Shown here in pieces: positions 15,096 to 38,660 of a stretch of DNA of 64,000 nt. The position numbers and the translations under genes were made by a program. Position 1 is the stretch's first letter, and every line of letters starts with the position of its first letter. Under the pieces are notes generated by a model. It ran no database searches. It was not told the DNA's origin and saw only the letters and a list, made by a program, of their open reading frames with translations. This DNA comes from Mesorhizobium sp. L2C084A000 (lineage in GTDB: Bacteria > Pseudomonadota > Alphaproteobacteria > Rhizobiales > Rhizobiaceae). Where the stretch lies: positions 432,555-496,554 of the forward strand of contig NZ_AYWX01000009.1 in the NCBI RefSeq assembly GCF_000502875.1. The letters are read 5' to 3'.

Positions 15096-16133
15096 ATGAA
15101 AGCCAATCCGATGACGACCACCAACCCGATCGATGCGCTGCTGGCTGAAAAGGGCGTGCTGCTGGCCGATGGCGCCACCGGCACCAATCTATTCGCCATG
15201 GGTCTGGAGGCCGGCGAGGCGCCCGAACTGCTGAACGAGACGGCGCCCGACACCATCACCAGCCTGCACCAGAATTTCGTCGATGCCGGCGCAGACATCA
15301 TCCTCACCAATTCGTTCGGCGGCACCCGTCACCGTTTGAAGCTTCACCATGCGCAGGACCGCGCGCATGCGCTGAACAAGCGCGCCGCCGAGCTTGCTCG
15401 TGCCGTCGCCGACAGAGCCGGCCGCAAGGTGATCGTCGCCGGTTCGGTCGGCCCGACCGGCGAATTGCTGGTGCCGCTGGGCGCCATGACCTATCACGAG
15501 GCGGTCGACGCCTTCGCCGAACAGATCGAGGGTCTCAAGGCCGGCGGCGCCGAAGTTGCCTGGATCGAGACGATGTCGGCTCCCGACGAGATCCGCGCCG
15601 CCGCCGAGGCGGCCATCCGCGTCGGCTTGCCCTACACCTACACCGGTTCCTTCGACACCGCCGGCCGCACCATGATGGGTCTGCTGCCGAAGGATATCCA
15701 CGGCGTCACCGACGGGCTGTCGCAGGCGCCGCTCGGCGTTGGCGCCAATTGCGGCGTCGGCGCCTCCGACATCCTGGCCTCGCTGCTCGACATGACCGAG
15801 GCGAAGCCGGAAGCGACGGTGATCGTCAAGGGGAATTGCGGCATTCCCGAATTCCGCGGCACCGAGATCCATTATTCCGGCACACCCGAACTGATGGCCG
15901 ACTATGTCAGGCTCGCCGTCGATGGCGGCGCCAAAATTATCGGCGGCTGCTGCGGCACCTCGTTCCAGCACCTCGCCGCCATGCGCAAGGCGCTCGACGC
16001 GCACACCAGGGCGGATCGTCCGACGGTTGCCGCGATCGTCGAACGCATCGGTCCGATGCGCAACAAGGTGGCGACGGAAAACACCGCCGAGACCAGCGAA
16101 GCCCGCCGCGAGCGCCGCCGCAGCCGGGCCTGA
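15096..16133 (+). CDS. Homocysteine S-methyltransferase family protein (betaine--homocysteine type)
   Basis: 345 residues. It is a Zn-dependent methyltransferase of the PF02574 barrel: substrate loop 'LLADGATGTNL', zinc cysteines in 'GANCGVG' (Cys219) and 'GGCCGT' (Cys285, Cys286). The family moves a methyl from betaine, S-methylmethionine or a related donor to homocysteine, making methionine. The C-terminus ends in an Arg-rich tail (EARRERRRSRA), like other methyl-pathway proteins in the window. No clear ribosome site is seen at 15096; the ATG at 15111 is an alternative. The palindrome at 15058-15077 suggests control by methionine-cycle status. Confidence 0.8.
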   Translation: MKANPMTTTNPIDALLAEKGVLLADGATGTNLFAMGLEAGEAPELLNETAPDTITSLHQNFVDAGADIILTNSFGGTRHRLKLHHAQDRAHALNKRAAELARAVADRAGRKVIVAGSVGPTGELLVPLGAMTYHEAVDAFAEQIEGLKAGGAEVAWIETMSAPDEIRAAAEAAIRVGLPYTYTGSFDTAGRTMMGLLPKDIHGVTDGLSQAPLGVGANCGVGASDILASLLDMTEAKPEATVIVKGNCGIPEFRGTEIHYSGTPELMADYVRLAVDGGAKIIGGCCGTSFQHLAAMRKALDAHTRADRPTVAAIVERIGPMRNKVATENTAETSEARRERRRSRA

Positions 16134-25323: not shown

Positions 25324-26619
25324 CTATTGCTCGCCCTCGCGCACGGTCCGCGCGCCGACATGCAGCGCACGGCCGGCACCGAGCCCCATGATGGCTACGC
25401 CAAGCCCGAGCGCGACGAACAGGAACGCCGTCCCCGAAAAACTGCCGGTCCAATCGCGGATCAGGCCCACCAGCAGCGGGCCGAATGCCGCCAGTACATA
25501 GCCGACGCCTTGCGCCATGCCTGAAAGATGCGCGGCGACATGCGAATCCGGCGAACGCAGCACGATCAAGCTCATGGCAGCCGCGATCAGGCCCCCCTGC
25601 CCAATGCCTTGCAGGACCGCCCAGAACAGCACCGTCGAGGTCGGCGCAAAGAGAATGCCGAGCAGCGCGATCACCGCTATGGCAACGAGCGCCACATTGA
25701 TGCCGCGCTGGTCCTTCAGCCGCATCGCAAAGGATGGCACGGCGAGGCACGTGATGACCTGCGCCATCACCGACACCGAAACCATCGCGCCGGCGGTGGC
25801 CGCGTCAAAGCCGCGCTCGCGCAGGATCGGCGCCAGCCAGCCGAAGATGCAATAGGCAAGTGCCGACTGCAGCCCCATGAACAGCGTCACCTGCCAAGCC
25901 AGGCGATCGCGCCAAAGCCCGACGACGTGAAAGCCGCGATGACTGACCTGCCGACGGCTGCCCAGCGCCTGCGGGATCCAGATCAGCAGCACGATCAGCG
26001 TCGGCACCGCCCAGGCAGCGAGCGCTCCCGACCATGAACCGGTGACAAAATGCTCGATCGGCAGCGTGAAGCCGGCAGCGGCAGCCGAGCCGGCGCAGAG
26101 CGCCATGGTGTAGAACCCGGTCATGATAGCGGCCCTGTCGGCGAAATCGCGCTTCACCAGGCCCGGCAGCAGCACATTGCCGATGGCAATCGCGCCACCG
26201 GCCAGGAATGTGGCGACAAACAGCAGGGGAACCGTACCGAACCAGCGCAGGCCGGTTCCCAGCACCAGCAAGGCGAGCGCCCCGAGCAAAGTGCGCTCGG
26301 CTCCATAGCGCTGCGCAAGCCTTGGCGCGAAGGGCGCGAACAGGCCGAGGCACAGGACGGGCAGCGTCGTCAGCAGGCTGGCGCCCGTCGTCGAAAGACC
26401 GGTTGCCTGCATCACCTCGGGCAACAGCACCGACAGGCTGGAAAACAGCGGCCTCAAGCTGAAGGCGATCAGCACAAGGCTTGCGCCAAGCATGATGCGC
26501 GCCGCACGGCTGCGCAGTTCAGGCGGCTGCGGCATGGGCAGGCTGTCGGCCTCGGCATCGACGAGTTCCAGACCCTCGACCTCGGCCTTCGGATCAGGCT
26601 GACGAAAACTCTGGTTCAT
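25324..26619 (-). CDS. MFS transporter, CynX/NimT type
   Basis: 431 residues. A charged 35-residue N-terminus precedes about twelve membrane segments; 'FSLRPLFSSLSVLLPEVMQA' in the first segment and 'AMSLIVLRSPDSHVAAHLSG' late in the protein match the cyanate/2-nitroimidazole transporter group. Its first 26 bases overlap the end of the GntR gene, so the two are coupled. Substrate unknown. Confidence 0.85.
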   Translation of the reverse strand: MNQSFRQPDPKAEVEGLELVDAEADSLPMPQPPELRSRAARIMLGASLVLIAFSLRPLFSSLSVLLPEVMQATGLSTTGASLLTTLPVLCLGLFAPFAPRLAQRYGAERTLLGALALLVLGTGLRWFGTVPLLFVATFLAGGAIAIGNVLLPGLVKRDFADRAAIMTGFYTMALCAGSAAAAGFTLPIEHFVTGSWSGALAAWAVPTLIVLLIWIPQALGSRRQVSHRGFHVVGLWRDRLAWQVTLFMGLQSALAYCIFGWLAPILRERGFDAATAGAMVSVSVMAQVITCLAVPSFAMRLKDQRGINVALVAIAVIALLGILFAPTSTVLFWAVLQGIGQGGLIAAAMSLIVLRSPDSHVAAHLSGMAQGVGYVLAAFGPLLVGLIRDWTGSFSGTAFLFVALGLGVAIMGLGAGRALHVGARTVREGEQ

Positions 26620-27292
26620 TGCGAAAGCAGTCTTTCAAGTTGGGCAACACCGGCGCCATGAAGGCTCGGACGGCGGCAACGGCGCGCTCGGGATCGCTCG
26701 CGGCAATGGCGTCGACGATTGCCGCATGCGCCTGGTGGTCCGGTTCGGGCAGATCGCCGTCGATGGTGGCATGGATGGTCTCGGTGATGGCGGCGGTGAA
26801 GAAGTCATAGAGCTCCATCATCGCCCTGTTGCCGGACGCCGCGACGACGGATTTGTGGAAAGCAAGATCGCGCCGGATGAAGGCTTCGCTTCCGCCGTCG
26901 GCGACGGTGCCGCGCGCGGCAAGCAATTGCCGCATCCGCTCGAGGTCGGCTGGCGTGTGACGCAAGGCGGCGAGCCTCGCGGCCTCGAGGTCCAGCGCCG
27001 CCCGCGCCTCCCACTGATCGCGCAAGCCGCTGCGTTTGACCCGGTCAAGCGCGGCAGAAGTATCGACGGCGGAGCGCACATAGGTGCCCGAGCCCTGACG
27101 CGTATTCAGCAACCCCTGCGAGACCAGCACCCGCACCGCCTCGCGGACGGTGCCCCGACTGACCGACAGAAGGTCGGTCAGAGCTGCCTCGTTGGGAATA
27201 CGCTCGCCGACACCCCAGCGGCCGCTGACGATTTCAGCCCGCAGGCTCTCGGTGGCGCTGTCGGTGAGATTGGTTCGGATAGCAGGTTGCAT
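26594..27292 (-). CDS. GntR-family regulator, FadR/FCD subtype
   Basis: 232 residues from the ATG at 27292; an ATG at 27304 and a TTG at 27307 in frame would lie inside the operator palindrome. N-terminal winged helix ('NEAALTDLLSVSRGTVREAV', about 35-55) and a C-terminal FCD helical domain with the metal-site residues 'RRDLAFHKSVVAASGN'. It probably controls the overlapping MFS gene through the 39 bp palindrome just upstream. Confidence 0.9.
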   Translation of the reverse strand: MQPAIRTNLTDSATESLRAEIVSGRWGVGERIPNEAALTDLLSVSRGTVREAVRVLVSQGLLNTRQGSGTYVRSAVDTSAALDRVKRSGLRDQWEARAALDLEAARLAALRHTPADLERMRQLLAARGTVADGGSEAFIRRDLAFHKSVVAASGNRAMMELYDFFTAAITETIHATIDGDLPEPDHQAHAAIVDAIAASDPERAVAAVRAFMAPVLPNLKDCFRNEPEFSSA

Positions 27293-27294
27293 CG

Positions 27295-27333
27295 GCCTAT
27301 TCATCAAGTCATCAGATGACTTGATGAATAGGC
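27295..27333. promoter_or_regulatory. 39-bp perfect palindrome, operator of the GntR gene
   Basis: Two perfect 19-base arms around a single A (27314). The arm runs GCCTATTCATCAAGTCATC. It ends three bases before the ATG at 27292 and so covers its ribosome site. The AAGTCATC-N-GATGACTT centre fits the GT-N-AC type of FadR-subfamily sites. Such a long perfect palindrome could also form an RNA hairpin that hides the start. Confidence 0.8.
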
Positions 27334-27392
27334 TTGCTTCTAACTGCCGTCAAGATGCTCGAAGCGAACGAGCACCACGCAATGGGAATGGA

Positions 27393-28088
27393 TCAGTTGG
27401 TGGCCCGTGCGAAGCTCGCCATGTGGAAGGCCTGAACCTCCGGCGGATAGCGATACTCCGTGCCATAGGGGCACGCATTGCGATCAAGGCAGCCGCCGCT
27501 GCGGCAAGGCGAGCCGCCGGCTCCACGCACATGCGTCAGGCAGGATTGATAAGCAAATCCTTGCGCGGAATAGGCGTCGGCCGGACAAGATTTCAGGCAA
27601 GGTTTCTCGACGCAGCTATCGCAAAGGTGAGGCGCCGTTTCGCCGGCTTGAATCGGAAGCTCGTCCTCGAACAGCAGCGCACCGCGATAGGCATGCCATA
27701 GCCCGTATTGCGGATGCATGAGGATGCCGAGCGGCGACGGCTTCAGTCCCTCCGCCCGCATCGCCCATTGCTGAAACGGCAGATAAGGTCTGTCGGAAGG
27801 GGAAACGGCTCGCGCCCCGAATGCCTCGGCCACGGCTCCGATCACTTCGCGCGACCACGTGTCGAGCGGATTGGCGATTGCCTGTGGCTGTTGCCCCCGC
27901 CAACGCAGGAAATACGGCCAGGGTGCCGCGCCCGCCTGCCCTACCAGCAGGACGGCCGCTGCCGGCGCACCAGATGATCCCGTTGGCGGCGCATTGCCTG
28001 TTGTAAAATTGAAGCCGCCGCGAAGAACAAGGCCGTTGGCGTGAAGCGCCGCAGCAATGCGGTCAACGCTGCCGGCGGGCGCAATCAT
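27393..28088 (-). CDS. Ferredoxin-like 4Fe-4S protein, QueG/reductive-dehalogenase-like C-terminus
   Basis: 231 residues starting at the ATG at 28088, immediately after AAGAAGGA. The C-terminal 65 residues hold a cluster motif: 'CDSCVEKPCLKSCPADA', then 'SCLTH', 'PCRSGGC' and 'NACPYG', enough for one or two Fe-S centres. The N-terminal two thirds resemble the region of QueG-like proteins that sits beside the corrinoid, but I see no separate corrinoid-binding motif. It lies 90 bp after the mttB-like gene on the same strand, so a role in reducing the corrinoid protein is possible (inference). Confidence 0.65.
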   Translation of the reverse strand: MIAPAGSVDRIAAALHANGLVLRGGFNFTTGNAPPTGSSGAPAAAVLLVGQAGAAPWPYFLRWRGQQPQAIANPLDTWSREVIGAVAEAFGARAVSPSDRPYLPFQQWAMRAEGLKPSPLGILMHPQYGLWHAYRGALLFEDELPIQAGETAPHLCDSCVEKPCLKSCPADAYSAQGFAYQSCLTHVRGAGGSPCRSGGCLDRNACPYGTEYRYPPEVQAFHMASFARATN

Positions 28089-28177
28089 TCCTTCTTGACC
28101 GGATCGGAGAACGCGCTCCGCCAGACTTCCTTGTGGATGATGTTGGCGACTTTAGCCCCGCCTGACTCGGGCTCCTT

Positions 28178-29752
28178 TCAAGTGAAGGCGTCGGGCATCG
28201 ACCCCTTCTTCTTGGCGATGAAGTCCTGCAACGCTTCGTCGATGCTCGGATCGAGATACGGCGCCTCGTAGCTTTCCAGCCAGCGGCGGGCAAGTTCGTT
28301 GGCACGCTGCGGCGCGGTCTTCTCGCCTTCGGCCAGCCACTGCTCGTAGGAATTGTTGTCGGCGATGTTGGAGCGGTAGAAGGCGGTCTGGAAATTGGCC
28401 TGGGTGTGGTCGCAGCCGAGATAGTGGCTGCCCGGGCCGACCTGGCGGATGGCGTCCATCGCCTGGCCGTTTTCCGACAGGTCGACGCCCTCGGAAAACT
28501 TCTGCGTCATGCCGAGCTGATCGATGTCCATCATGAACTTCTCATAACAGGACGCGAGCCCGCCCTCAAGCCAGCCGGCAGAGTGCAGCACGAAGTTGGT
28601 GCCGGCCAGGATGGTCGAGTTCAGCGTGTTGGCGCTTTCATAGGCCGCCTGAGCATCCGGAACCTTGGACGCGCAGAGCGAGCCGCCGGTGCGGAACGGC
28701 AGGCCCAGCCGACGCGCCAGCTGTGCGGCGCCATAAGACACCAGCGACGGCTCCGGCGTGCCGAAGGTCGGCGCTCCCGACTGCATCGAAATCGACGAGG
28801 CGAAGGTGCCGAACAGCACCGGCGCGCCGGGACGGATCAACTGCGTGAACGAGGCGCCGGCCAGCACTTCGGCCAGGACCTGCGTTAGCGTGCCGGCCAC
28901 CGTCACCGGGCTCATCGCGCCCGCAAGGATGAACGGCGTGACGATGCAGGCCTGGTTGTGGCGCGCATAGACTTTCAGCGCGCCGAGCATGGTCTCGTCG
29001 AACACCATCGGCGAGTTGGCGTTGATCAGGCTGGTCAGCACCGTGTTGTTCTCGACGAAATCGTCGCCGAAGACGATCTTGGCCATGGCGACGGTGTCTT
29101 CGGCGCGTTCCGGCGCGGTCACCGAGCCCATGAACGGCTTGTCGGAATATTTGATGTGGCTGTAGATCATGTCGAGGTGGCGCTTGTTGACCGGCACGTC
29201 GACGGGCTCACACACCGTGCCGCCCGAATGGTGGATCGACGGCGCCATATAGGCGAGCTTCACGAAATTCTGGAAATCCTCGATCGTCGCATAACGCCTG
29301 ACGCCATCGAGGTCACGCACGAAGGGCGGACCGTAGACCGGCGCAAAGACGGTGGCATTGCCGCCGATCTGCACCGAACGCTCGGAATTGCGCGCATGCT
29401 GGGTGTAGACGGACGGCGCGGTCTTGAGCAGCGAACGGCACAGCCCCTTCGGAAAGTGCACGCGCTCGCCCTTGACGTCGGCGCCGGCCTCTTTCCACAG
29501 TTGCAGCGCTTCCGCGTCATCACGGAAGATGATGCCGATCTCCTCGAGCACCGTGTCGGTGTTCTTCTCGATCAGCGCCAGGCCTTCCTCGTCCAGCACC
29601 TCGTAAACGTTGATCTTGCGCTTGATGTAGGTGAGCTGTGTACCCGGGCCACCGCCCGAACGTGCTGCCCGCCGGGCTGCAGCCCCGCCACTGGCGCCAC
29701 GCCCACGTCGCGCGTTTGACGCTTCCTGATCGACTGCCGCGTGTTCGCTCAT
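28178..29752 (-). CDS. MttB-family methyltransferase, non-pyrrolysine (second copy)
   Basis: 524 residues from the ATG at 29752 with AGGGAAGAACCACC before it; a longer frame from 29791 has no site. Same superfamily as 6311-7888: 'FGTFASSISMQSGAPTFGTP', 'SAGWLEGGLASCYEKF', 'VGPGSHYLGCDHTQ'. The frame contains no amber codon. Residues about 15-35 are Arg/Gly/Ala-rich (NARRGRGASGGAAARRAARS). The two copies clearly differ across most of their length, so substrates probably differ. It is transcribed divergently from the corrinoid protein, its expected methyl acceptor. Likely donors are glycine betaine, proline betaine or another betaine; sequence alone does not decide. Confidence 0.85.
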   Translation of the reverse strand: MSEHAAVDQEASNARRGRGASGGAAARRAARSGGGPGTQLTYIKRKINVYEVLDEEGLALIEKNTDTVLEEIGIIFRDDAEALQLWKEAGADVKGERVHFPKGLCRSLLKTAPSVYTQHARNSERSVQIGGNATVFAPVYGPPFVRDLDGVRRYATIEDFQNFVKLAYMAPSIHHSGGTVCEPVDVPVNKRHLDMIYSHIKYSDKPFMGSVTAPERAEDTVAMAKIVFGDDFVENNTVLTSLINANSPMVFDETMLGALKVYARHNQACIVTPFILAGAMSPVTVAGTLTQVLAEVLAGASFTQLIRPGAPVLFGTFASSISMQSGAPTFGTPEPSLVSYGAAQLARRLGLPFRTGGSLCASKVPDAQAAYESANTLNSTILAGTNFVLHSAGWLEGGLASCYEKFMMDIDQLGMTQKFSEGVDLSENGQAMDAIRQVGPGSHYLGCDHTQANFQTAFYRSNIADNNSYEQWLAEGEKTAPQRANELARRWLESYEAPYLDPSIDEALQDFIAKKKGSMPDAFT

Positions 29753-30028
29753 GGTGGTTCTTCCCTGAATCTGTTCTTGTCTGGAATCCATAGCGGCTGC
29801 ATCTCGCCGCTTCTTGCCAGATCGTAGCCATGCACCCTATTCGAAACGGCCCGCCAGCGCCAACGCCTGTCGCAAAATCGACAAGAATTCCAAGAGAGTT
29901 ACGGTCGCTTTCCTTTTGCGGGAAGTCGCAAATCAGCTATGGATACCTGCCCCCAGCGGGTTAGGTATGAACGCGAATATATTGTGCCTTGCGACGCACG
30001 TCGCGATGCCGGCAGGAGCTCGATACAA
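29753..30028. promoter_or_regulatory. Divergent control region of mttB-like and corrinoid genes
   Basis: 276 bp without a gene. It carries a 21 bp-period direct repeat, GGTCGC at 29903-29908 and AGTCGC at 29924-29929, 100 bp before the corrinoid gene start. A further TGTCGC occurs at 29868. TTTGCG-N6-CGCAAA (29915-29932) overlaps the second unit. The two NGTCGC units match those before the mttB-like gene at 6311, the MetVF operon and the GcvT flavoprotein. One activator could therefore serve all of them. Confidence 0.5.
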
Positions 30029-30727
30029 ATGGCCGACGACGAGATCATCCTTTCCGAACTTTCCGACGACGAGTTGGTGCAGCAGATGCACGACGATCTC
30101 TATGACGGGCTGAAGGAAGAGATCGAGGAAGGCACCAACATCCTGCTCGAGCGCGGCTGGGTGCCCTACAAGGTGCTGACCGAGGCGCTGGTCGAAGGCA
30201 TGCGCATCGTCGGCGAGGATTTTCGCGACGGCATCCTGTTCGTGCCCGAAGTGCTGTTGTCGGCCAATGCGATGAAGGCCGGCATGTTCATCCTGCGTCC
30301 GCTGCTCGCCGCCACCGGCGCGCCGAAGCAGGGCAAGATGGTCATCGGCACCGTCAAGGGCGACATCCACGACATCGGCAAGAACCTCGTCGGCATGATG
30401 ATGGAAGGTGCTGGCTTCGACGTCATCGATCTCGGCATCAACAATGCGGTCGAGAAATATCTCGATGCGATCGAACAGCACCAGCCCGACATCATCGGCA
30501 TGTCGGCCCTGCTGACCACGACCATGCCCTATATGAAGGTCGTCATCGACACGATGAAGGAAAAGGGCATCCGCGACGACTATGTCGTGCTGGTCGGCGG
30601 CGCGCCGCTGAACGAGGAATTCGGCAAGGCCGTCGGCGCCGATGCCTATTGCCGAGACGCGGCGGTGGCGGTCGAGACCGCCAAGGACTACATGAAGCGC
30701 AAGCACAATGTGCGCGCTTCGGCCTGA
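30029..30727 (+). CDS. Corrinoid (methylcobalamin) protein, MtgC/MtbC type
   Basis: 232 residues from the ATG at 30029 with GGCAGGAGC upstream. A helical cap domain (about 15-95) is followed by a B12-binding Rossmann domain with the base-off motif D112-x-H114-x-x-G117 ('GDIHDIGKN'), 'MSALLTTTMPYMK' and 'VLVGGAPLNEEF'. His114 should replace dimethylbenzimidazole under the cobalt. It accepts a methyl from the MttB-family enzyme and gives it to the methyl-THF enzyme at 35517. It is the only free-standing corrinoid protein in the window, so both MttB-type enzymes may share it. Confidence 0.92.
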   Translation: MADDEIILSELSDDELVQQMHDDLYDGLKEEIEEGTNILLERGWVPYKVLTEALVEGMRIVGEDFRDGILFVPEVLLSANAMKAGMFILRPLLAATGAPKQGKMVIGTVKGDIHDIGKNLVGMMMEGAGFDVIDLGINNAVEKYLDAIEQHQPDIIGMSALLTTTMPYMKVVIDTMKEKGIRDDYVVLVGGAPLNEEFGKAVGADAYCRDAAVAVETAKDYMKRKHNVRASA

Positions 30728-30753
30728 TTGGCCAATTCAGAATGGACAACAGG

Positions 30754-30781
30754 AAGCCGCGCCTTGCAGCGCGGCTTTTTT
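30754..30781 (+). terminator. Rho-independent terminator after the corrinoid gene
   Basis: AGCCGCGC (30755-30762), six-base loop, GCGCGGCT (30769-30776), then a run of T to 30781. It lies 27 bp after the stop. Confidence 0.9.
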
Positions 30782-30811
30782 GTTCCCAGATGAAGAAAGG
30801 CCGGGTGCGGA

Positions 30812-30952
30812 TCAGGGATTGTTGACGGTGTCCTCGACCGCATTGGCGGTTGATTTGACGTCCTTGCCGACGCCTCGGACGGTGTTCGCACAAGCCGTGA
30901 GGGCCAGGGCGCAGGTCAAGATGGCAATTGGCGTGATGCGTAGCAGTTTCAT
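30812..30952 (-). CDS. Entericidin-like small lipoprotein
   Basis: 46 residues from the ATG at 30952, behind GAGGGAGACACC. A signal sequence ends in the lipobox 'LTAC', followed by 'ANTVRGVGKDVKSTANAVED', the entericidin A/B pattern. It would be anchored in the outer or inner membrane. Its start faces the DUF1638 gene 64 bp away. Confidence 0.8.
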   Translation of the reverse strand: MKLLRITPIAILTCALALTACANTVRGVGKDVKSTANAVEDTVNNP

Positions 30953-31016
30953 GGACGGTGTCTCCCTCAATAGATAAATTAGCGCTACAGCAACGAAGGC
31001 CGGCTCGACGGGTTCC

Positions 31017-31646
31017 ATGGCCAAGACGCAAAAAACGAAACCGAATCAAGACGACAGGCTGCTCGTTATCGCCTGTGGGATGATTGCGCGCGAAATTCTG
31101 GCCGTCAAGGAACAGCTCGGACTGGATCACCTCGACCTGACCTGCCTGCCGGCGGAATTCCATTTCTATCCGGACCGCATCGCCCCGGCCATGGACAAGG
31201 CAATCGAAAAGGCCAAGGCCGACGGCTACAGCAACATCTTCGTCGGCTATGCCGATTGCGGCACCGGCGGCCTGCTCGACAGGGTGTGCGAGAAGCATGG
31301 CGTCGAGCGCATGGCCGGCCCGCACTGCTTTGCCTTCTATCAAGGCATGGAGGCCTATGCGAAAATCGCCGACGACGACATGATGTCCTTCTACATGACC
31401 GACTTCCTCTGCCGGCAGTTCGACGCCTTCTTCATGAGGCCGCTCGGCCTCGACAAGCATCCGGAGTTGATCAAGGACTATTTCGGCAACTACGAGAAGC
31501 TGATCTATCTGGCCCAGACCAACGATCCGGAACTCGACAAGGTCGCCGAAAAGGCCGCCAAAATGCTTGGTCTCGTCTATGAACGCCGCGCAACCGGCTA
31601 CGGCGACCTGACGGCCGGAATGGCGCTGGCGGCTGCACACGCCTGA
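31017..31646 (+). CDS. DUF1638 protein of the corrinoid cluster
   Basis: 209 residues. The N-terminal 'RLLVIACGMIAREILAVKEQ' and 'VGYADCGTGGLLDR' are the marks of DUF1638, a family of unknown function that I recall as a frequent neighbour of MttB and corrinoid genes. Several cysteines and acidic residues ('ACGM', 'YADCGTGG') could bind metal or cofactor. It is placed between the corrinoid protein and the MetVF operon, supporting a role in methyl transfer, corrinoid loading or repair. Confidence 0.8.
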   Translation: MAKTQKTKPNQDDRLLVIACGMIAREILAVKEQLGLDHLDLTCLPAEFHFYPDRIAPAMDKAIEKAKADGYSNIFVGYADCGTGGLLDRVCEKHGVERMAGPHCFAFYQGMEAYAKIADDDMMSFYMTDFLCRQFDAFFMRPLGLDKHPELIKDYFGNYEKLIYLAQTNDPELDKVAEKAAKMLGLVYERRATGYGDLTAGMALAAAHA

Positions 31647-31758
31647 AGCAATTCTTGACCCGCCATGCTCCAACCCTGGATGACAGGCCATCGAGAACGG
31701 GTAAGTTGTGCGCCACAAGGCAACAGGCCCTCCAGCCATTCGAACGTGGAAACGCACG

Positions 31759-32334
31759 ATGACCCCTCACCTCTTGATAGCCGTACTCGGTCTCCTCTGT
31801 TTCGCCCTGCCCGCTCATGCCGACGGCGAGGTGCAGAAACTCATCACCCCAGCCGACAAGGCACGGCTCGACAAATATGGCGAGACCCGCAAGGCGGCGC
31901 TCGCCGAGGCGAAAGCGGGAAACCCCGCCGAGGTCAAACAACTCGACGCCTTGCTGGCAAAACCGCTGGTAGCCTTCTCCGACAAGGACCTGACCGGCAA
32001 TTGGCGGTGCCGCACGATCAAGGCCGGCGGACCTTTGCCGCTCGTCATCTATGGCTGGTTCAAGTGCAAGGTGACCGATGACGGTTCCGGCTGGCGGCTG
32101 GAGAAGATCAGCGGCTCACAGCGCACCAAGGGCCGTTTCTTCGACGATGGCGAGAAACGCGCGATCTATCTCGGCTCCTTCTATGTCAACGACGATCCGG
32201 CAAAGCCCTATGGCAGCGCCCCGCAAACCGACCAGGTCGGCTACGCCTTCCGCAACAGCGCCAAGGAATGGCGCATCGAATTCCCGGCGCCCTACTACGA
32301 ATCGAAGCTCGATATCATCGAATTGAAGCGCTGA
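31759..32334 (+). CDS. Exported DUF4893-like protein
   Basis: 191 residues from the ATG at 31759 (GTGGAAACGCACG before it). An N-terminal signal peptide ends near 'FALPAHADG'. The mature part carries 'DLTGNWRCRTIKAGGPLP' and 'GWFKCKVTDDGSGWRLEKIS', typical of DUF4893. It would be periplasmic. Function unknown; no obvious tie to methyl metabolism. Confidence 0.75.
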   Translation: MTPHLLIAVLGLLCFALPAHADGEVQKLITPADKARLDKYGETRKAALAEAKAGNPAEVKQLDALLAKPLVAFSDKDLTGNWRCRTIKAGGPLPLVIYGWFKCKVTDDGSGWRLEKISGSQRTKGRFFDDGEKRAIYLGSFYVNDDPAKPYGSAPQTDQVGYAFRNSAKEWRIEFPAPYYESKLDIIELKR

Positions 32335-32427
32335 CCGGCATCGAAGATGCTGATCACCAAGGATTAACCCGGACGCCCTAGCATCCCGCCCATTGTCGAG
32401 AACGGTTGCTTGGAGGGGGCAAGATCC

Positions 32428-33210
32428 ATGGCAGCATCAGAATCCAGTACGCGTCCGATCGTGGTCGTCACCGGCGGCGGCCAGCATGTCTGGGTTATGA
32501 TCAATGCAATCGCCGATCGCGTTGGTCCTGTCAGCGTCGTCCTCGAAACCCCTGAATCCAAAAAGCAATTGCTGCGTGGCCGGGCTCGCCGCCAGGGCTG
32601 GATCTCCGCCATGGGCCAGCTTGGCACGATGGTGCTGAGCAGGTTGGGCAAGCGATTCCTGGCCGGCCACAGCGCGCGCTTGATTGCCGAGGAGAAGCTG
32701 GAGGTTGAGCCGCGACCAGGCCAGGAGATCATCCAAGTAGCCTCCGCCAATGGGCTTGAGTGCCTGCAGGCGATCCAGAAGATCCGGCCAGGCGTTGTAC
32801 TGCTCAACGGTTGCCGACTAATCTCGGCTGAGATGCTGAGCAAAATGCCCTGCCCGGTGCTCAACTACCATGCGGGCATCACGCCGAAATATCGCGGCAT
32901 GAATGGCGGCTATTGGGCTCTGGTATCAGGCGATGCGCAGAATTTCGGCACGACTGTCCACCTCGTCGACGCTGGCGTCGACACCGGTGGCGTGCTGAAG
33001 CAGGCGCGCGGACGATCGAAAAAGGGCGACACCATCTCAAGTCACGCGCTACGCCAGACGGCGTTCTCACGCGACATCTGCGTCGAGGCCGTCAGCGATG
33101 CACTGGCTGGAAAACTCACGACGATCGATCCCGGCCTGCCTTCGAAGCTGTGGTATCATCCGACGATCTGGTTCTACGTCTGGACGGGCCTCAGAACCGG
33201 CATCTGGTAG
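32428..33210 (+). CDS. Formyltransferase-family protein
   Basis: 260 residues from the ATG at 32428 with TTGGAGGGGG upstream. The central part (about 100-210) has the formyltransferase signature 'LNYHAGITPKYRGMNGGYWA' and a later 'VDAGVDTGGVL', which hold the catalytic Asn-His-Asp type residues. Relatives use 10-formyl-THF to formylate methionyl-tRNA, purine precursors or amino-sugars. A sugar-N-formyltransferase is one option; use of formyl-THF in this C1 region is another. Substrate undetermined. Confidence 0.75.
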   Translation: MAASESSTRPIVVVTGGGQHVWVMINAIADRVGPVSVVLETPESKKQLLRGRARRQGWISAMGQLGTMVLSRLGKRFLAGHSARLIAEEKLEVEPRPGQEIIQVASANGLECLQAIQKIRPGVVLLNGCRLISAEMLSKMPCPVLNYHAGITPKYRGMNGGYWALVSGDAQNFGTTVHLVDAGVDTGGVLKQARGRSKKGDTISSHALRQTAFSRDICVEAVSDALAGKLTTIDPGLPSKLWYHPTIWFYVWTGLRTGIW

Positions 33211-33325
33211 CGAGTTCCTCGCCCGTATCCGCATGCCGCACGCTGGCTCTTCCGGCGCGTCGAACCTGCCGCCAGCACACGCCGCAAACGAATAAACCCA
33301 CCTTTCATTTTACGACATCCAAATG

Positions 33326-33352
33326 CGTCGCTTTTGAATGCGCGCGCGTCGT
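33326..33352 (+). promoter_or_regulatory. NGTCGN direct repeat, 21-bp period, before the MetVF operon
   Basis: CGTCGC (33326-33331) and CGTCGT (33347-33352) lie 21 bp apart in the same orientation, ending 62 bp before the ATG at 33414. Spacing and distance agree with the sites at 6215, 29903 and 47404. The second unit departs at its last base. Confidence 0.35.
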
Positions 33353-33413
33353 CCCATAACAAGCGGCCCCACTGCGCTTCCGGCAATGCTCGCAGATCGA
33401 GGAGTGAGAATTC

Positions 33414-33716
33414 ATGGCCGATCTGATCGTCGTCTACTGGCGCGACATCCCAGCCCAAATCATCGTCAAGAAGGGCCGGCAGAACGCCAAGCGCGAACTG
33501 CCGCTGCGCTTCACCGAGGCGATCGACATGTGCGCGATGCGCACTGGCGCCGGCGGCACCGACGATTATCTGGCCGAATGGCGCAAGGCCGATCCCGTCC
33601 CGGTCGGCGACGACCTCGAAGCCGAGGTCGAGAAGGCATTCAACGATATCGACACGAAATACGACCGCGAGCGGCTGGTCGCCCTGGTCAAGGCAGGCGG
33701 CAAAGAAAATGTCTGA
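33414..33716 (+). CDS. PF13769 'virulence factor' small protein, first gene of the MetVF operon
   Basis: 100 residues behind GAGGAGTGAGAA. It starts 'MADLIVVYWRDIPAQIIVKK' and contains 'ELPLRFTEAIDMCAMRTG', which I recall as the 'virulence factor' family PF13769, of unknown function despite the name. It overlaps the MetV-like gene by eight bases, so it is part of the methyl-THF module. A role as an assembly or electron-transfer partner is conceivable but unproven. Confidence 0.75.
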   Translation: MADLIVVYWRDIPAQIIVKKGRQNAKRELPLRFTEAIDMCAMRTGAGGTDDYLAEWRKADPVPVGDDLEAEVEKAFNDIDTKYDRERLVALVKAGGKENV

Positions 33717-34347
33717 AACCATTCCTGCCAAGGATGGCCAAAGGGTTGTCCAGCCGGTTACCCAAGCCACTCTGGTCAAGAAGGCAGCGCCGAAATCCGA
33801 CTACAAGCCGGCCGACGTGTCGCCGCAGCGGCGCGTGCAGCGTTCCTTTGCGGTCCGGCTGTGGTCGATCAGGCACTCGCGCCTGCTCGAATGGTTCTAC
33901 GGCAAGTTCGCCGACATGTTCCTGCTCCTTCATCCCCTGTGGAAAGGCATCGGCTACGGCCGTGTCGAAGGACCGATCAAATTCGTCGAGAAGCGCGTCA
34001 AGGGCTTCATGTTCGACTGCCGCATGTGCGGCCAGTGCATCTTGTCCTCGACCGGCATGTCGTGCCCGATGAACTGCCCCAAGCAATTGCGCAACGGCCC
34101 TTGCGGCGGTGTCCGCGCCAACGGCAATTGCGAGGTCGAACCCGATATGCCGTGCGTCTGGGTCAAGGCCTGGGAAGGCTCGCAGAACATGGTGCACAGT
34201 GACAGGATCCTGACCGTGCAGAAGCCGGTCGACCAGTCGCTGCGCGAAACCTCGGCCTGGCTGCGGGTGACCGCGCAGGCGGCCGCCGCGAGCGAAGCCG
34301 CCGCTGCCGCCAAGAATGGGGCGGCAAACACCGGGGCATCGGAATGA
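33709..34347 (+). CDS. metV: MetV-like Fe-S subunit (methylene-THF reductase C-terminal family)
   Basis: 212 residues. The family (PF12225) is the partner of MetF in MetVF enzymes of acetogens. Eight cysteines in the middle (104, 107, 110, 119, 123, 132, 141, 149) appear as 'CRMCGQCILSSTGMSCPMNC' and 'NGPCGG', enough for one or two 4Fe-4S clusters. It overlaps metF by four bases (ATGA) and the PF13769 gene by eight. In acetogens this subunit feeds electrons between a carrier and MetF. Here the reaction would run in reverse, oxidising methyl-THF (inference). Confidence 0.85.
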   Translation: MSETIPAKDGQRVVQPVTQATLVKKAAPKSDYKPADVSPQRRVQRSFAVRLWSIRHSRLLEWFYGKFADMFLLLHPLWKGIGYGRVEGPIKFVEKRVKGFMFDCRMCGQCILSSTGMSCPMNCPKQLRNGPCGGVRANGNCEVEPDMPCVWVKAWEGSQNMVHSDRILTVQKPVDQSLRETSAWLRVTAQAAAASEAAAAAKNGAANTGASE

Positions 34348-35435
34348 TCGGCCGCCAGCGCGACGAGAATCCGGCCGGCATCGATCTGCCGCTCGATCCC
34401 CTGCCCGGCCATACTTCGCGCGGCCGGCTGGAGCGCGTGCTTCGGCGCGGCGAGTTCGCGGTGACGACCGAGCTCAACCCGCCCGACAGCGCCGATCCGG
34501 AAGACGTCTACAACAGGGCAAAAATCTTCGACGGCTGGGTCGACGCCATCAACGCCGTCGACGCCTCGGGCGCCAATTGCCACATGTCGTCAGTCGGCAT
34601 CTGCGCGTTGCTGACCCGCATGGGCTATGCGCCGATCATGCAGATCGCCTGCCGCGACAAGAACCGCATCGCCATCCAGGGCGACGTGCTGGGCGGGGCC
34701 GCGATGGGCGTCGCCAACATGCTGTGCCTGACCGGAGACGGTGTGCAGGCTGGCGACCAGCCGGGCGCCAAGCCGGTATTCGATCTCGACTGCATGTCGC
34801 TCTTGGAAACCTGCCGCATCATGCGCGACAACGGCAAGTTCCTGTCCGGCCGCAAGCTGACGACGCCGCCGCAGCTTTTCCTGGGTGCTGCGATCAACCC
34901 GTTCGCGCCGCCGATCGATTTCCGGCCGCATCGCCTGGGCAAGAAGATCGCCGCCGGCGCGCAATTCGTACAGAGCCAATATTGCTTCGACGTGCCGATG
35001 TTCCGCACCTACATGCAAAAGGTGCGCGACCTCGGCTACACCGAAAAATGCTTCATCCTGGTTGGCGTCGGCCCGTTGGCCTCGGCCAAGACGGCCAAAT
35101 GGATCCGCTCCAACGTGCCTGGCATCCATATCCCCGATTCTGTCATCAAGCGGCTGGAAGGCGCCCAGGACCAGAAGAAGGAAGGCAAGCAGCTCTGCAT
35201 CGACATCATCAACGAGGTGAAGGAAATATCAGGCGTTTCCGGCGTCCATGTGATGGCCTACCGGCAGGAGGAATATGTCGCCGAGATCGTCGATGAATCG
35301 GGCGTGCTCAAGGGCCGCCAGCCGTGGAAGCGTGAGATTCGCCGCGACGACCAGATGGTCGCCGATCGGCTCGAGCACATACTGCACGACGACATTACCG
35401 AAACGCAGGTGGATATGGTGAAGACCGCGCACTGA
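34344..35435 (+). CDS. metF: Methylenetetrahydrofolate reductase (MetF-type)
   Basis: 363 residues with the MTHFR TIM-barrel features: 'AVTTELNPPDSADPEDVYNR' at the start, 'PIMQIACRDKNRIAIQGDVL' and 'GDGVQAGDQPGAKPVFDLD' in the flavin/folate region. It interconverts methyl-THF and methylene-THF. It is longer than typical bacterial MetF (about 300 residues). Located between metV and the methyl-THF:corrinoid methyltransferase, it most likely oxidises the methyl group from amine demethylation. Ends 82 bp before the next gene, with the palindrome at 35479 between them. Confidence 0.88.
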   Translation: MIGRQRDENPAGIDLPLDPLPGHTSRGRLERVLRRGEFAVTTELNPPDSADPEDVYNRAKIFDGWVDAINAVDASGANCHMSSVGICALLTRMGYAPIMQIACRDKNRIAIQGDVLGGAAMGVANMLCLTGDGVQAGDQPGAKPVFDLDCMSLLETCRIMRDNGKFLSGRKLTTPPQLFLGAAINPFAPPIDFRPHRLGKKIAAGAQFVQSQYCFDVPMFRTYMQKVRDLGYTEKCFILVGVGPLASAKTAKWIRSNVPGIHIPDSVIKRLEGAQDQKKEGKQLCIDIINEVKEISGVSGVHVMAYRQEEYVAEIVDESGVLKGRQPWKREIRRDDQMVADRLEHILHDDITETQVDMVKTAH

Positions 35436-35478
35436 CGGCGCGGACGGCCACCCATTCGCTTGAACGAAAACAGACAAC

Positions 35479-35500
35479 GATATAAAGAAATCTTTATATC
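35479..35500. promoter_or_regulatory. Perfect palindrome GATATAAAGA-AA-TCTTTATATC
   Basis: Two perfect 10-base arms around AA, ending 16 bp before the ATG at 35517. The inner ATAAAGA-NN-TCTTTAT core is identical to that before the homocysteine methyltransferase (15058-15077). It probably overlaps a promoter internal to the operon. Candidate ArsR-type (SahR-like) operator sensing S-adenosylhomocysteine; this assignment is from memory. Confidence 0.75.
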
Positions 35501-35516
35501 ACGGCGGAGAGACTTC

Positions 35517-36491
35517 ATGACCCGTACCATTGTCGCCTCGGCGACACGAGAAATCATCATCGGCTTCGACCAGCCGTTCTGCGTGATCGGTGAACGCATC
35601 AATCCGACCGGCCGCAAGAAGCTGGCCGCCGAGATGATCGCGGGCAATTTCGAGACCGTCATCAGGGACGCATTGGAGCAGGCAGCCTGCGGCGCCACCA
35701 TGCTCGACGTCAACGCGGGCGTCACCTCGGTCAATCCGAACGAGACCGAACCCGGCCTCTTGGTGCAGACGCTGGAGATCGTGCAAGGGCTTGTCGACCT
35801 GCCGCTGTCGATCGACAGCTCCGTCACCGCCGCGATCGAAGCCGCGTTGAAGGTCGCCAAGGGCCGCCCGCTGGTCAACTCCGTCACCGGCGAGGAAGAA
35901 AAGCTCGAAGCCATCCTGCCGCTGGTCAAGAAGTACAATGTGCCTGTCGTCGCCATCTCCAACGACGAGACCGGCATTTCGATGGACCCGGACGTGCGCT
36001 TTGCCGTCGCCAAGAAGATCGTGCAGCGCTGCGCCGATTTCGGCATCCCCGCGCATGACGTCGTCGTCGACCCGCTGGTCATGCCGATCGGCGCGCTGGG
36101 CGATGCCGGCCGCCAGGTCTTCGCGCTGCTGCGACGCCTGCGCGAAGAGCTCAAGGTCAACACCACCTGCGGCCTGTCCAACATCTCCTTCGGCCTGCCG
36201 CATCGCCACGGCATCAACGCCGCCTTCATCCCGATGGTGATCGGCGCCGGCATGACGTCAGCCATCATGAACCCGGTGCGTCCGCAGGAAATGGAAGCCG
36301 TGCGCGGCGCCAATGTGCTGAACGGCACCGACGAGAACTGCACCAACTGGATCCGTACCTACAAGGACTATAAGCCGGCAGAAGGCGGCCAGGCCGTTGC
36401 CGCCCCGACGCAGGTCAATGCGCCGGGCGACGGCGCCGGCAATGGCGGTCGCCGCCGTGGCGGTCGTGAAGCCCGGATGGGCCGAGGATAA
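35517..36491 (+). CDS. Methyltetrahydrofolate:corrinoid methyltransferase (MtgA/AcsE-like)
   Basis: 324 residues from the ATG at 35517 behind GGCGGAGAG. A pterin-binding barrel: 'FCVIGERINPTGRKKLA', 'ATMLDVNAGVTSVNPNETEP', 'LSIDSSV' and 'TTCGLSNISFGLPHRHGINA', the last with the asparagine used in AcsE/MetH to activate methyl-THF. It moves the methyl between methylcobamide and THF. The core is about 280 residues; the remaining 40 or so form a Gly/Arg-rich tail (GGRRRGGREARMGRG) not expected in AcsE. The ASKHA gene starts 11 bp downstream. Confidence 0.88.
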   Translation: MTRTIVASATREIIIGFDQPFCVIGERINPTGRKKLAAEMIAGNFETVIRDALEQAACGATMLDVNAGVTSVNPNETEPGLLVQTLEIVQGLVDLPLSIDSSVTAAIEAALKVAKGRPLVNSVTGEEEKLEAILPLVKKYNVPVVAISNDETGISMDPDVRFAVAKKIVQRCADFGIPAHDVVVDPLVMPIGALGDAGRQVFALLRRLREELKVNTTCGLSNISFGLPHRHGINAAFIPMVIGAGMTSAIMNPVRPQEMEAVRGANVLNGTDENCTNWIRTYKDYKPAEGGQAVAAPTQVNAPGDGAGNGGRRRGGREARMGRG

Positions 36492-36501
36492 GCGCGCAAT
36501 C

Positions 36502-38592
36502 GTGAACTCACCTGCAAACATCACCGATCCGCTCGTGCTTTTCATGCCGTCCGGCAAGCGCGGGCGGTTTCCTGTCGGCACGCCGGTGCTTGATGCCGCG
36601 CGCCAGCTTGGTGTCTATGTCGAAAGTGTGTGCGGCGGACGCGCCACCTGCGGGCGCTGCCAGATCGAAGTGCAGGAAGGCAATTTCGCCAAGCACAAGA
36701 TCACCTCCTCCAACGACCACATCACGCCCAAGGGTGCCAAGGAAGAGCGCTATGAGCGCGTCCGCGGCCTGCCCGAACGGCGCCGCCTCTCTTGCTCGGC
36801 GCAGATCCTCGGCGACCTCGTCATCGACGTGCCGCAGGATACGGTCATCAACGCGCAGACCATCCGCAAGGATGCCGACACCAGGGTGATCGCCCGCGAT
36901 GCGGCGATCCGCATGTGCTATGTCGAGATCGAAGAACCCGACATGCACAAGCCGCTCGGCGATCTCGACCGGCTGAAGATCGCGCTGATGCACGACTGGG
37001 GCTTGAAAAGCCTTGATTTCGATTTTCATCTGCTGCCGCAGGTGCAAGGCATCCTGCGCAAGGGCAACTGGACGGCGACCGCCGCCATCTACAAGGATGC
37101 CGACTCAGAGACAGCGCGCGTCGTGGCGCTGTGGCCCGGCCTCAAGAACGAAGCCTATGGGCTGGCTTGCGACATCGGCTCGACCACCATCGCCATGCAT
37201 CTGGTATCGCTGCTGTCGGGCCGCGTCGCCGCCTCGTCCGGCACGTCGAACCCGCAGATCCGCTTCGGCGAGGATCTGATGAGCCGCGTCTCCTATGTGA
37301 TGATGAACCCGGATGGTCGCGAAGGCATGACGGTTGCCGTGCGTGAGGCGATCTCGGGCCTGGTCGACAAGGTCTGCGCCGAAGGCAATGTCCAGCGCAA
37401 CGACATCCTGGACAGCGTCTTCGTCGGCAATCCGATCATGCACCATCTGTTCCTCGGCATCGATCCGACCGAGCTTGGCGGCGCGCCCTTTGCGCTGGCC
37501 GTTTCGGGCGCCGTGCATATCAAGGCATCCGACATCGGCTTGAAGCTCAACCAGGGCGCCAGGCTCTACATGCTGCCTTGCATCGCCGGCCATGTCGGAG
37601 CGGACGCGGCGGCGGTGACGCTGTCGGAAGGCCCGCATCGCCAGGACGAGATGATGCTGATCGTCGATGTCGGCACCAATGCCGAGATCGTACTCGGCAA
37701 TCGCCAGCGGGTGGTTGCGGCTTCCTCGCCCACCGGCCCTGCCTTCGAGGGTGCCGAAATCTCCGGCGGCCAGCGGGCAGCACCCGGCGCCATCGAGCGC
37801 GTGCGCATCGACCCAGACACGCTGGAGCCGAAATACCGCGTCATCGGCTCGGAACTGTGGTCCGACGAACCGGGCTTCCTGGAGAGCGTCCAGGCAACCG
37901 GCGTCACCGGCATCTGCGGTTCCGGCATCATCGAGGTGGTGGCCGAGATGTATCTCGCCGGCATCATTTCCGAGGACGGCGTCATCGACGGCGGGCTTTC
38001 GGCCCGTTCGCCGCGCGTCACCGCCAACGGCCGCACCTTCTCCTATGTGCTGAAGGAAGGCTCCGCCGCATTGACGGAAGATGGGCCGAAGATCACCATC
38101 ACCCAGACCGATGTGCGCGCCATTCAGCTTGCCAAGGCAGCGCTTTATGCCGGGACCAAGCTGTTGATGGAAAAGCAGAACACCGAGCATGTCGACCGCA
38201 TCCATTTCGCCGGCGCCTTCGGCTCCTTCATCGATCCGAAATACGCCATGGTGCTCGGGCTGATCCCGGATTGCGACCTCGACAAGGTCTCGGCCGTCGG
38301 CAACGCCGCAGGTGCCGGCGCCCGCATGGCGCTGCTCAATCGCGGCTACCGCCGCGAGATCGAGGACACGGTCAGCAAGATCGAGAAGATCGAGACGGCG
38401 CTGGAACCGAAATTCCAGGAGCATTTCGTCTACGCCATGGCGCTGCCCAACAAGGTCGATCCGTTCCCAAAACTGTCGGCAGCGGTGAAACTGCCGCCGC
38501 GCAAGACGGTCAGCGAGGACGGTGTTGCCGGCGACGCTGCTCCGCGACGGCGTTCGCGCGAAGGCCACGCCGCCAGGCGTGGACGGGAATAA
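36502..38592 (+). CDS. 2Fe-2S/ASKHA corrinoid-activation protein (RACo-like)
   Basis: 696 residues from the GTG at 36502, after GAGGATAAG; the frame extends upstream only as overlap with the previous gene. N-terminal 2Fe-2S ferredoxin with Cys44, Cys50, Cys53 and Cys98 (C-x5-C-x2-C), then an ASKHA ATPase region with 'ACDIGSTTIAMHLVSL' and 'LIVDVGTNAEIVLGN' (DUF4445). RamA/RACo/AtoD-type proteins use ATP to reduce inactive Co(II) corrinoid to Co(I). In an aerobic organism the corrinoid would be oxidised often, making this step essential. The C-terminus is an Arg-rich tail (PRRRSREGHAARRGRE). Confidence 0.88.
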   Translation: MNSPANITDPLVLFMPSGKRGRFPVGTPVLDAARQLGVYVESVCGGRATCGRCQIEVQEGNFAKHKITSSNDHITPKGAKEERYERVRGLPERRRLSCSAQILGDLVIDVPQDTVINAQTIRKDADTRVIARDAAIRMCYVEIEEPDMHKPLGDLDRLKIALMHDWGLKSLDFDFHLLPQVQGILRKGNWTATAAIYKDADSETARVVALWPGLKNEAYGLACDIGSTTIAMHLVSLLSGRVAASSGTSNPQIRFGEDLMSRVSYVMMNPDGREGMTVAVREAISGLVDKVCAEGNVQRNDILDSVFVGNPIMHHLFLGIDPTELGGAPFALAVSGAVHIKASDIGLKLNQGARLYMLPCIAGHVGADAAAVTLSEGPHRQDEMMLIVDVGTNAEIVLGNRQRVVAASSPTGPAFEGAEISGGQRAAPGAIERVRIDPDTLEPKYRVIGSELWSDEPGFLESVQATGVTGICGSGIIEVVAEMYLAGIISEDGVIDGGLSARSPRVTANGRTFSYVLKEGSAALTEDGPKITITQTDVRAIQLAKAALYAGTKLLMEKQNTEHVDRIHFAGAFGSFIDPKYAMVLGLIPDCDLDKVSAVGNAAGAGARMALLNRGYRREIEDTVSKIEKIETALEPKFQEHFVYAMALPNKVDPFPKLSAAVKLPPRKTVSEDGVAGDAAPRRRSREGHAARRGRE

Positions 38593-38620
38593 GCGGCCGC
38601 GCCCACCGCCTTTCCAAACT

Positions 38621-38660
38621 CATTTGCATGCAAATGTTTCCGGATCGCTTGATCCGGAAA
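38621..38660. terminator. Palindrome plus stem-loop after the methyl-transfer operon
   Basis: CATTTGCATGCAAATG (38621-38636) is a perfect 16 bp palindrome. It is followed by TTTCCGGATC-GCTT-GATCCGGAAA (38637-38660), a perfect 10 bp stem. No strong T-run follows, so termination is only likely; it may be a dispersed repeat. Confidence 0.5.

Follow-up and report, generated by a model that had tools for sequence, protein, structure and literature searches.

A conserved corrinoid methyl-transfer cluster of the MtgBCDE type in Mesorhizobium, with probable roles in betaine demethylation and methionine synthesis

The window considered here, 64,000 nucleotides of Mesorhizobium sp. L2C084A000 (positions 432,555 to 496,554 of contig NZ_AYWX01000009.1, called C9 below, in a genome of 6.65 Mb), carries at 27393-38592 a compact cluster of genes related to those that pass methyl groups by way of a corrinoid protein. 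From left to right, an Fe-S protein and a methyltransferase of the MttB superfamily are encoded on the minus strand, followed on the plus strand by the corrinoid protein MtgC, a DUF1638 protein, a DUF4893 protein, a formyltransferase-like protein, a PF13769 protein, MetV, MetF, the methyltransferase MtgD, and a corrinoid activase (Table 1). The reading frames are open and intact throughout. The longest open reading frame (ORF) for MtgC begins at 29939, upstream of the start given in the table, and the TTG start of the activase ORF overlaps MtgD, the real start probably lying later. To the left of the cluster, at a distance of 11 kb, is the gene for the homocysteine methyltransferase MtgE; to the right are genes of the sarcosine-oxidase type and another DAO-GCV_T enzyme. 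Every family that the first-pass annotation of this DNA had named within the cluster was found where it had been placed. The second MttB that it had reported 20 kb away lies 20.3 kb from the first, and the enzymes for sarcosine and dimethylglycine that it had described in the region are present as DAO-GCV_T enzymes and a sarcosine-oxidase alpha subunit. Its list lacked the Fe-S protein (although the range it gave starts exactly where this gene does, at 27393), the DUF4893 protein, the formyltransferase-like protein, and MtgE.

Table 1. Genes of the corrinoid cluster and related genes in the window
Feature	Position	Strand	Evidence
Second MttB, of a clade neighboring DAO-GCV_T enzymes	6311..7888	+	Profile match and MttB tree
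DAO-GCV_T enzyme (dimethylglycine/sarcosine dehydrogenase-like), partner of second MttB	8059..10629	+	Domain match
MtgE-type homocysteine S-methyltransferase (PF02574), methyl acceptor module	15096..16133	+	209.7 bits
FadR-type GntR regulator (GntR + FCD), weakly linked	26594..27307	-	7/80 loci
Fe-S protein, candidate corrinoid reductase/electron donor	27393..28088	-	8 invariant Cys, weak CblC/MMACHC-like motif
MttB-superfamily methyltransferase without pyrrolysine, MtgB candidate (betaine:corrinoid methyltransferase)	28178..29791	-	MTTB 774 bits
Corrinoid protein MtgC (B12-binding cap + B12-binding)	30029..30727	+	B12-binding 93.5 bits, B12-binding_2 61 bits; GDIHDIG motif
DUF1638 protein	31017..31646	+	84.7 bits
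DUF4893 protein, passenger	31759..32334	+	Present in 31/80 loci
Formyltransferase-like protein (PF00551)	32428..33210	+	Present in 46/80 loci
PF13769 ('Virulence_fact') protein, 100 aa, core member	33414..33716	+	89.9 bits; 69/80 loci
MetV (PF12225)	33709..34347	+	DUF5981/MetV 95.7 bits
MetF (PF02219), partner of MetV, second MTHFR of genome	34344..35435	+	MTHFR 106.8 bits
MtgD, methyl-THF:corrinoid methyltransferase (pterin-binding)	35517..36491	+	Pterin_bind 95.6 bits; PRK07535 394.7 bits, cut-off 259
RACo/RamA-like 2Fe-2S + ASKHA corrinoid activase	36397..38592	+	RACo_C_ter 306 bits, RACo_middle, RACo_linker, Fer2

The arrangement can be compared with that in relatives through 80 named loci, the best 80 of 591 candidates found in a search with MtgC, whose closest named relatives come from Mesorhizobium (99% identity). 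Six core genes, those encoding MttB, MtgC, DUF1638, PF13769, MtgD, and the activase, were observed together in 66 of the 80 loci and in 64 of the 67 that are longer than 20 kb, in Rhizobiaceae as well as Phyllobacteriaceae. This conservation is far above chance. Gene by gene, MttB shares the locus with MtgC in 75 cases (in one of them, L058, it is of a different type), and DUF1638 does so in 74. The Fe-S gene is present in 69 loci, which is also the count for PF13769 and for MtgD; 67 have the activase, MetV and MetF are each found in 56, and in 53 the flank fetched contains MtgE. Some of the absences are contig ends, and apparent matches to a second MttB were cross-matches of the cluster MttB and were not counted. 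The cluster is real, intact, and conserved, and it is probably functional. The PF13769 gene is a highly conserved core gene despite its small size, and its Pfam name, 'Virulence factor', is probably misleading. At two loci (L095:7015-9717 and L101:6815-9727), the usual place of the Fe-S gene, directly 3' of MttB, is taken by MtgE; adjoining MtgE there are a binding protein of the betaine type and a gene resembling formate dehydrogenase, both named from sequence by eye. The GntR regulator, an MFS protein, and an alpha/beta hydrolase were considered as members of the cluster and rejected, as they occur in just 7, 8, and 8 of the 80 loci, the hydrolase close to where the fetched flank ends.

The published system that this cluster resembles is MtgBCDE of Ruegeria pomeroyi DSS-3 (PMC12478193, PNAS 2025). 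That report gives genetic evidence that growth on glycine betaine and the synthesis of methionine both depend on MtgC and MtgD, lists as partners of these two an MttB-family MtgB, MtgE, RamA, DUF1638, and an extra MetF, and names a colocalized set in Sinorhizobium meliloti. All have counterparts here: a pfam06253 MttB without pyrrolysine, a stand-alone MtgC with the motif DxHxxG, MtgD, MtgE near by, a RamA-like activase with DUF1638, and an extra MetF (accompanied by MetV). Even the number of MttB paralogues is similar, up to seven in that report and seven in the present genome. Because each published part is present in the window locus, the locus is a further member of the MtgBCDE system and not a new one. 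The first-pass annotation had thought it the best candidate for an underdescribed system, a judgment overtaken by the 2025 report with its S. meliloti locus. There are differences. In contrast to R. pomeroyi, the genes in the window sit together, MetV accompanies MetF, PF13769 and the Fe-S protein are part of the block, and the classical methionine synthases MetH and MetE are kept. A word search of the main text of PMC12478193, figures apart, found none of the words PF13769, virulence, ferredoxin, 4Fe-4S, iron-sulfur, or MetV.

A second known relative is the split methionine synthase of Phaeobacter inhibens (Price et al. 2018, PMC5764234), in which, as in the window, the PF02574, pterin, and B12 modules are separate proteins served by DUF4445/RamA-like and DUF1638 reactivation proteins. 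Both of the latter are needed for methionine synthesis in aerobically grown cells. Unlike the window locus, that synthase as described in the available part of the paper has no MttB component, and its genes are not all together. The methyl branch of the Wood-Ljungdahl pathway (AcsE/AcsV) was also considered, but the scores with the NCBIfam models for the CODH/ACS methyltransferase and AcsV fell below the cut-offs (NF040758, 123.1 of 370; NF040756, 394.9 of 800).

What the cluster MttB acts on may be judged from its relatives of known structure. It matches PDB entry 4YYC, 'Putative trimethylamine methyltransferase', at 974 bits over 513 residues, and by this likeness the two are members of one orthologue group. 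The entry name of 4YYC, which we take to be the S. meliloti 1021 protein, assigns no function. The cluster MttB is also 46.0% identical to 9YCE, 'Glycine betaine methyltransferase', the other six paralogues in the genome reaching 30.0-39.3%. Since it is orthologous to 4YYC and the closest of the seven to 9YCE, glycine betaine is the best guess for its substrate. Presumably 9YCE, like 2QNE ('Putative methyltransferase'), comes from Desulfitobacterium hafniense, whose MtgB is an MttB homologue without pyrrolysine, 46% identical to the cluster protein, with methyl flow to tetrahydrofolate (THF). D. hafniense differs in being an anaerobe, and its MtgC is of another lineage (PMC12478193). The pyrrolysine-containing trimethylamine methyltransferase, MttB proper, can be rejected: the cluster protein has Leu372 at the position of pyrrolysine in 7XCL (given there as X), and its score with TIGR02369, 280.9, is below the cut-off of 525.

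The seven MttBs fall into groups that are consistent with their surroundings, according to neighboring genes and a tree of 15 MttBs (used solely to define paralogue groups, as long branches were flagged). The cluster MttB stands apart. Those on contigs C11 and C16 have as neighbors binding proteins of the OpuAC type and of family 5, and the one on C11 adjoins a racemase that in PDB is matched best by 4E8G/4IZG/4J1O, presumably proline-betaine enzymes. Three others (on C9 at 6 kb, and on C13 at 88 kb and 200 kb) each lie beside a dehydrogenase of the DAO-GCV_T type, and these dehydrogenases are 45-59% identical to one another, closer than they are to three further such enzymes within the window or close to it. 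The last, on C6, is divergent (355 bits) and lies directly before a GbcA-like Rieske oxygenase (L038:8006-11015), so that genes for a corrinoid-type and an oxygen-dependent demethylase are adjacent.

Set against the seven MttBs, the whole genome has a single activase (the sole match to PF14574) and a single B12-binding protein of the size of MtgC; of the other four places matching PF02310, one is MetH and the rest are longer open frames (436, 544, and 756 amino acids). The six other MttBs probably share this MtgC, passing to it methyl groups taken from other betaines. One locus has the arrangement expected if MtgC serves other MttBs. In M. sophorae (L058:6652-11902), an MtgC 98% identical to that of the window lies between an MttB with its binding protein and a racemase. 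The MttB is 95% identical to the C16 protein; the binding protein and the C11-like racemase were named by eye.

The pair formed by MetV and MetF (MetVF) bears on the direction of flow. Among the 69 loci with both PF13769 and MtgD, the two genes occur together in 56, are both absent from 13, and are never found singly. Of those 13, nine have another gene resembling methylenetetrahydrofolate reductase (MTHFR) in the same slot, such as the one in L075 (PF02219, 34.9 bits), and four are empty. In a tree of 67 MttBs, loci with a replacement appear in four separate places and empty loci in two, as read off the tree, some of whose deep forks have support of 86-94; an automatic count gave one change but ignores 54 ungrouped rows. 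Because the slot gene has been exchanged repeatedly, the job of the slot would seem to be the conversion between methyl-THF and methylene-THF. Were MetVF the sole MTHFR, it would be forced into the anabolic direction, but this is ruled out by a second, higher-scoring MetF on C13 (PF02219, 300 bits). Such duplication is general in the genus. In a survey of 81 Mesorhizobium genomes, 78 of them good (completeness at least 90%, contamination at most 5%), with counts covering the activase, MtgE, MttB, MetH, MetE, and MTHFR, two MTHFRs were counted in 77 of the 81, three in 3, and one in 1. The presence of the higher-scoring MetF elsewhere, and of two MTHFRs in nearly all these genomes, favors an oxidative, catabolic direction for MetVF.

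The cluster is read here, with a probability of roughly three in four, as an aerobic corrinoid methyl-transfer hub of the MtgBCDE type that serves both betaine demethylation and methionine synthesis. The cluster MttB would take a methyl group off a quaternary amine, of which glycine betaine is the likeliest, and place it on the Co(I) of MtgC; MtgD would pass it from MtgC to THF; and MetVF would take methyl-THF to methylene-THF, for oxidation of the C1 unit. In reverse, MtgD and MtgC would deliver methyl groups to MtgE, the three making up a split methionine synthase. The cobalt would be kept reduced by DUF1638 and the ATP-dependent RACo/RamA-like activase, and the CblC-like Fe-S protein may feed in electrons or cobalamin. 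The flow that the first-pass annotation had expected, from betaine methyl to Co(I) corrinoid to THF to methylene-THF, finds support in the genetics of R. pomeroyi (PMC12478193), in the likeness to 9YCE, and in the second MetF, which would free MetVF. That interpretation was nonetheless incomplete, because the hub would also serve methionine synthesis: the catabolic flow is supported but its exclusivity is not, as MtgC and MtgD are needed for methionine too in R. pomeroyi (PMC12478193) and MtgE is near by.

The genus as a whole speaks to the methionine side. The activase is present in 80 of the 81 genomes, MtgE in 80 (two of these have it broken up at contig ends), and MttB in all 81, with 3-13 copies (median 7) in the 78 good genomes. 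MetH (counted by PF02965) is found in 40 of the 81 and MetE (by PF08267) in 30, fragments included. Neither model is matched in 28 of the 78 good genomes. One of these, G141, has a PF01717 fragment with a stop, the remaining 27 none, and among the matches listed for the 28, which run below the relevant score range, none lies in the range of the homocysteine domain of MetH (34-38% identity). With 28 of 78 good genomes lacking a match to MetH or MetE, the Mtg system would be the only methionine synthase, of the families searched, in about a third of the genus. In G151, G156, G164, G168, G171, G184, and G196, MetE (MetH in G196) is in pieces, a short fragment, or interrupted by a stop. Perhaps the loss is ongoing; or perhaps these are sequencing errors. 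The 28 genomes retain MtgE, the activase, and MttB and so offer a natural test. Since the models of the classical synthases are unmatched there, methionine synthesis and betaine use would be expected to fall together upon loss of mtgC. The loss of classical methionine synthase in part of the genus deserves a second look, and the 2025 finding of MtgBCDE in marine bacteria would be extended to a well-studied genus of soil and symbiosis.

Several observations weigh against a dual-purpose hub. The strain of the window has full-length MetH and MetE, so that the hub is not its only methionine synthase and would be redundant for that purpose; MtgBCDE systems usually, though not universally, go with the absence of both, and Hyphomicrobiales are listed among the exceptions (PMC12478193). 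A metH mutant of S. meliloti is a methionine auxotroph rescued by betaine (PMC12366255, citing Barra 2006), so the split synthase did not stand in for MetH when betaine was lacking. Bmt of P. inhibens, which is of the MtgE type, makes methionine directly from betaine in vitro without cobalamin, according to the same paper. MtgC lies outside the block in four of the 80 loci (L058, L077, L082, and L084), in the last three without MttB or DUF1638 within the stretch fetched. No betaine transporter was found among the scanned neighbors of the cluster MttB (part of the ORFs was scanned). Lastly, no riboswitch or other RNA family in Rfam reached its gathering score anywhere in the window. Control by a riboswitch was rejected after a permissive scan of 26000-39500, which gave a sub-threshold PYLIS_3 within MttB (30.9 of 38 bits) and four other matches with E-values of 0.54-0.88.

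It might be that the cluster is chiefly a split methionine synthase, with MttB an accessory supplier of methyl groups, and that betaine is catabolized mainly by Rieske oxygenases. The near universality of MtgE and the activase in the genus, when MetH is found in half of it, is what one would expect in that case, and the genome does have three Rieske oxygenases (PF00848). The one on C17 is followed by a GbcB-like reductase, and the others are on C6 and C1. To say that betaine is demethylated without a Rieske monooxygenase, as the first-pass annotation had proposed, is therefore wrong as a statement about the organism, in which one such oxygenase has a GbcB-like reductase and another lies beside an MttB. 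The annotation had also held that its proposal would fall if other enzymes fully explained betaine use while these genes were silent; in part that is what is seen, as the Rieske enzymes may explain some of it. The C17 locus was nevertheless rejected as the glycine betaine monooxygenase GbcAB, as it misses both equivalog cut-offs (GbcA, 525.8 against 670; GbcB, 364.9 against 500). Its oxygenase matches chains of 3N0Q, 3VCA, and 4QUP about equally, reaching 532.6 bits with 3VCA, which we take to be the stachydrine demethylase of S. meliloti. Also, a mere synthase would not lead one to expect MttB in 75 of the 80 MtgC loci (one of a different type), nor does methionine synthesis obviously need MetVF, a second MTHFR beside a higher-scoring MetF. 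That the cluster is chiefly a synthase is on balance improbable.

It is about equally improbable that MtgE acts alone as a betaine:homocysteine methyltransferase while the corrinoid genes serve some other methyl donor (proline betaine, carnitine, dimethylsulfoniopropionate (DMSP), or a methoxylated compound). The activity of P. inhibens Bmt in vitro (PMC12366255) would fit. The S. meliloti-type protein, however, lacks residues required for binding betaine, and an S. meliloti bhmt mutant grows on betaine once methionine is supplied, both as stated in PMC12478193. The diversity of the seven MttBs, some of them in contexts resembling those of proline betaine, also fits a donor other than glycine betaine.

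Families of this kind are known from anaerobes, and Co(I) is sensitive to oxygen, so one might take the cluster for a functionless relic of an anaerobic pathway under air. That is very improbable, given the intact frames, an activase and MttB in all 78 good genomes of the genus, core synteny across two families, and the need for the system shown in Ruegeria (PMC12478193) and in aerobically grown Phaeobacter (PMC5764234).

For the task of holding a corrinoid at Co(I) in an aerobe, the conserved CblC-like Fe-S protein, DUF1638, and PF13769 are concrete candidates. The Fe-S protein (231 amino acids) has no match in Pfam at the usual threshold, and its relatives are named in databases as ferredoxin, 4Fe-4S dicluster, or hypothetical protein. 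In the 69 loci that have it, the gene is always on the strand of MttB and 3' to it, with a gap of 90-240 bases in 60 of them. Six loci have MttB but lack the Fe-S gene (L058, L095, L096, L099, L101, and L120, some at contig ends), hence the gene is not indispensable. Eight cysteines are invariant across 63 aligned sequences, and the protein likely holds two 4Fe-4S clusters.

It also bears a weak likeness to CblC (MMACHC). The MMACHC model matches 57 of the 74 members of the alignment at E <= 0.1 (best 5.4e-6), the next family matching 8, but many of the 74 were drawn by a search with the L108 protein, the member nearest that model, so the sample is biased. The match to PF16690 spans just about 25 residues and does not reach the cut-off of 27, scoring 14.7 bits for the window protein and 25.4 bits for that of L108. 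Of 120 listed relatives of L108, 5 (L108 itself among them) carry PF16690.11 as a precomputed domain; for the window protein the figure is 0 of 120. When the 20 closest relatives of L108 were made into a profile and compared with PDB, all seven chains returned were of the CblC type, with non-significant E-values of 0.07-0.25; broader profiles of the Fe-S protein placed CblC and QueG among ferredoxin-type proteins, likewise without significance. The residues G121, H125, P126, G129, W131, and R135 align with G147, H151, P152, G155, W157, and R161 of CblC (numbering from the alignment), and of 122 distinct aligned Fe-S sequences, 111 have HPxxGxWxxxR and 121 have PFQ. The Fe-S protein thus has in common with CblC motifs like PFGxxxxPFQ and GxxxHPxxGxWxxxR, but they are about 15 residues apart instead of about 120, and it has in addition two motifs of the 4Fe-4S type. 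QueG, as in the Fe-S protein, has its Fe-S module after the cobalamin-type motif.

The protein may be a corrinoid reductase directed to cobalamin or to MtgC. A fuller proposal would see in it a ferredoxin of a CblC/QueG-like kind as yet undescribed, which would bind cobalamin or MtgC and give a low-potential electron, or load the cofactor, for Co(I) methyl transfer in air. The seven MttBs and the split methionine synthase would then depend on an oxygen-tolerant service module for corrinoids, made up of this protein, DUF1638, PF13769, and the activase. This is tentative, with the odds against it, and it is made a little less likely by the lack of the MMACHC domain in all 120 listed relatives of the protein in the window. 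No paper on a CblC-like Fe-S partner of MttB was found in a search by title and start of abstract that left out most subscription journals and preprints. The protein is worth a second look.

Some nearby genes may also bear on methylated compounds. The second MttB and its DAO-GCV_T partner are followed by a DddP-like M24 protein (10639-11994, plus strand), which scores 483.7 bits with the model for the DMSP lyase DddP (cut-off 600); a link to DMSP or to another sulfonium or betaine is possible. The sarcosine-oxidase alpha subunit is preceded by a DAO protein, the small gene between the two having been named by eye. Just to the right of the window (L039:3573-6952) is another DAO-GCV_T-like enzyme, 32-36% identical to those beside MttBs, and after it comes a second PF02574 homocysteine methyltransferase, whose nearest model is PRK09485 (149.8 of 215 bits).

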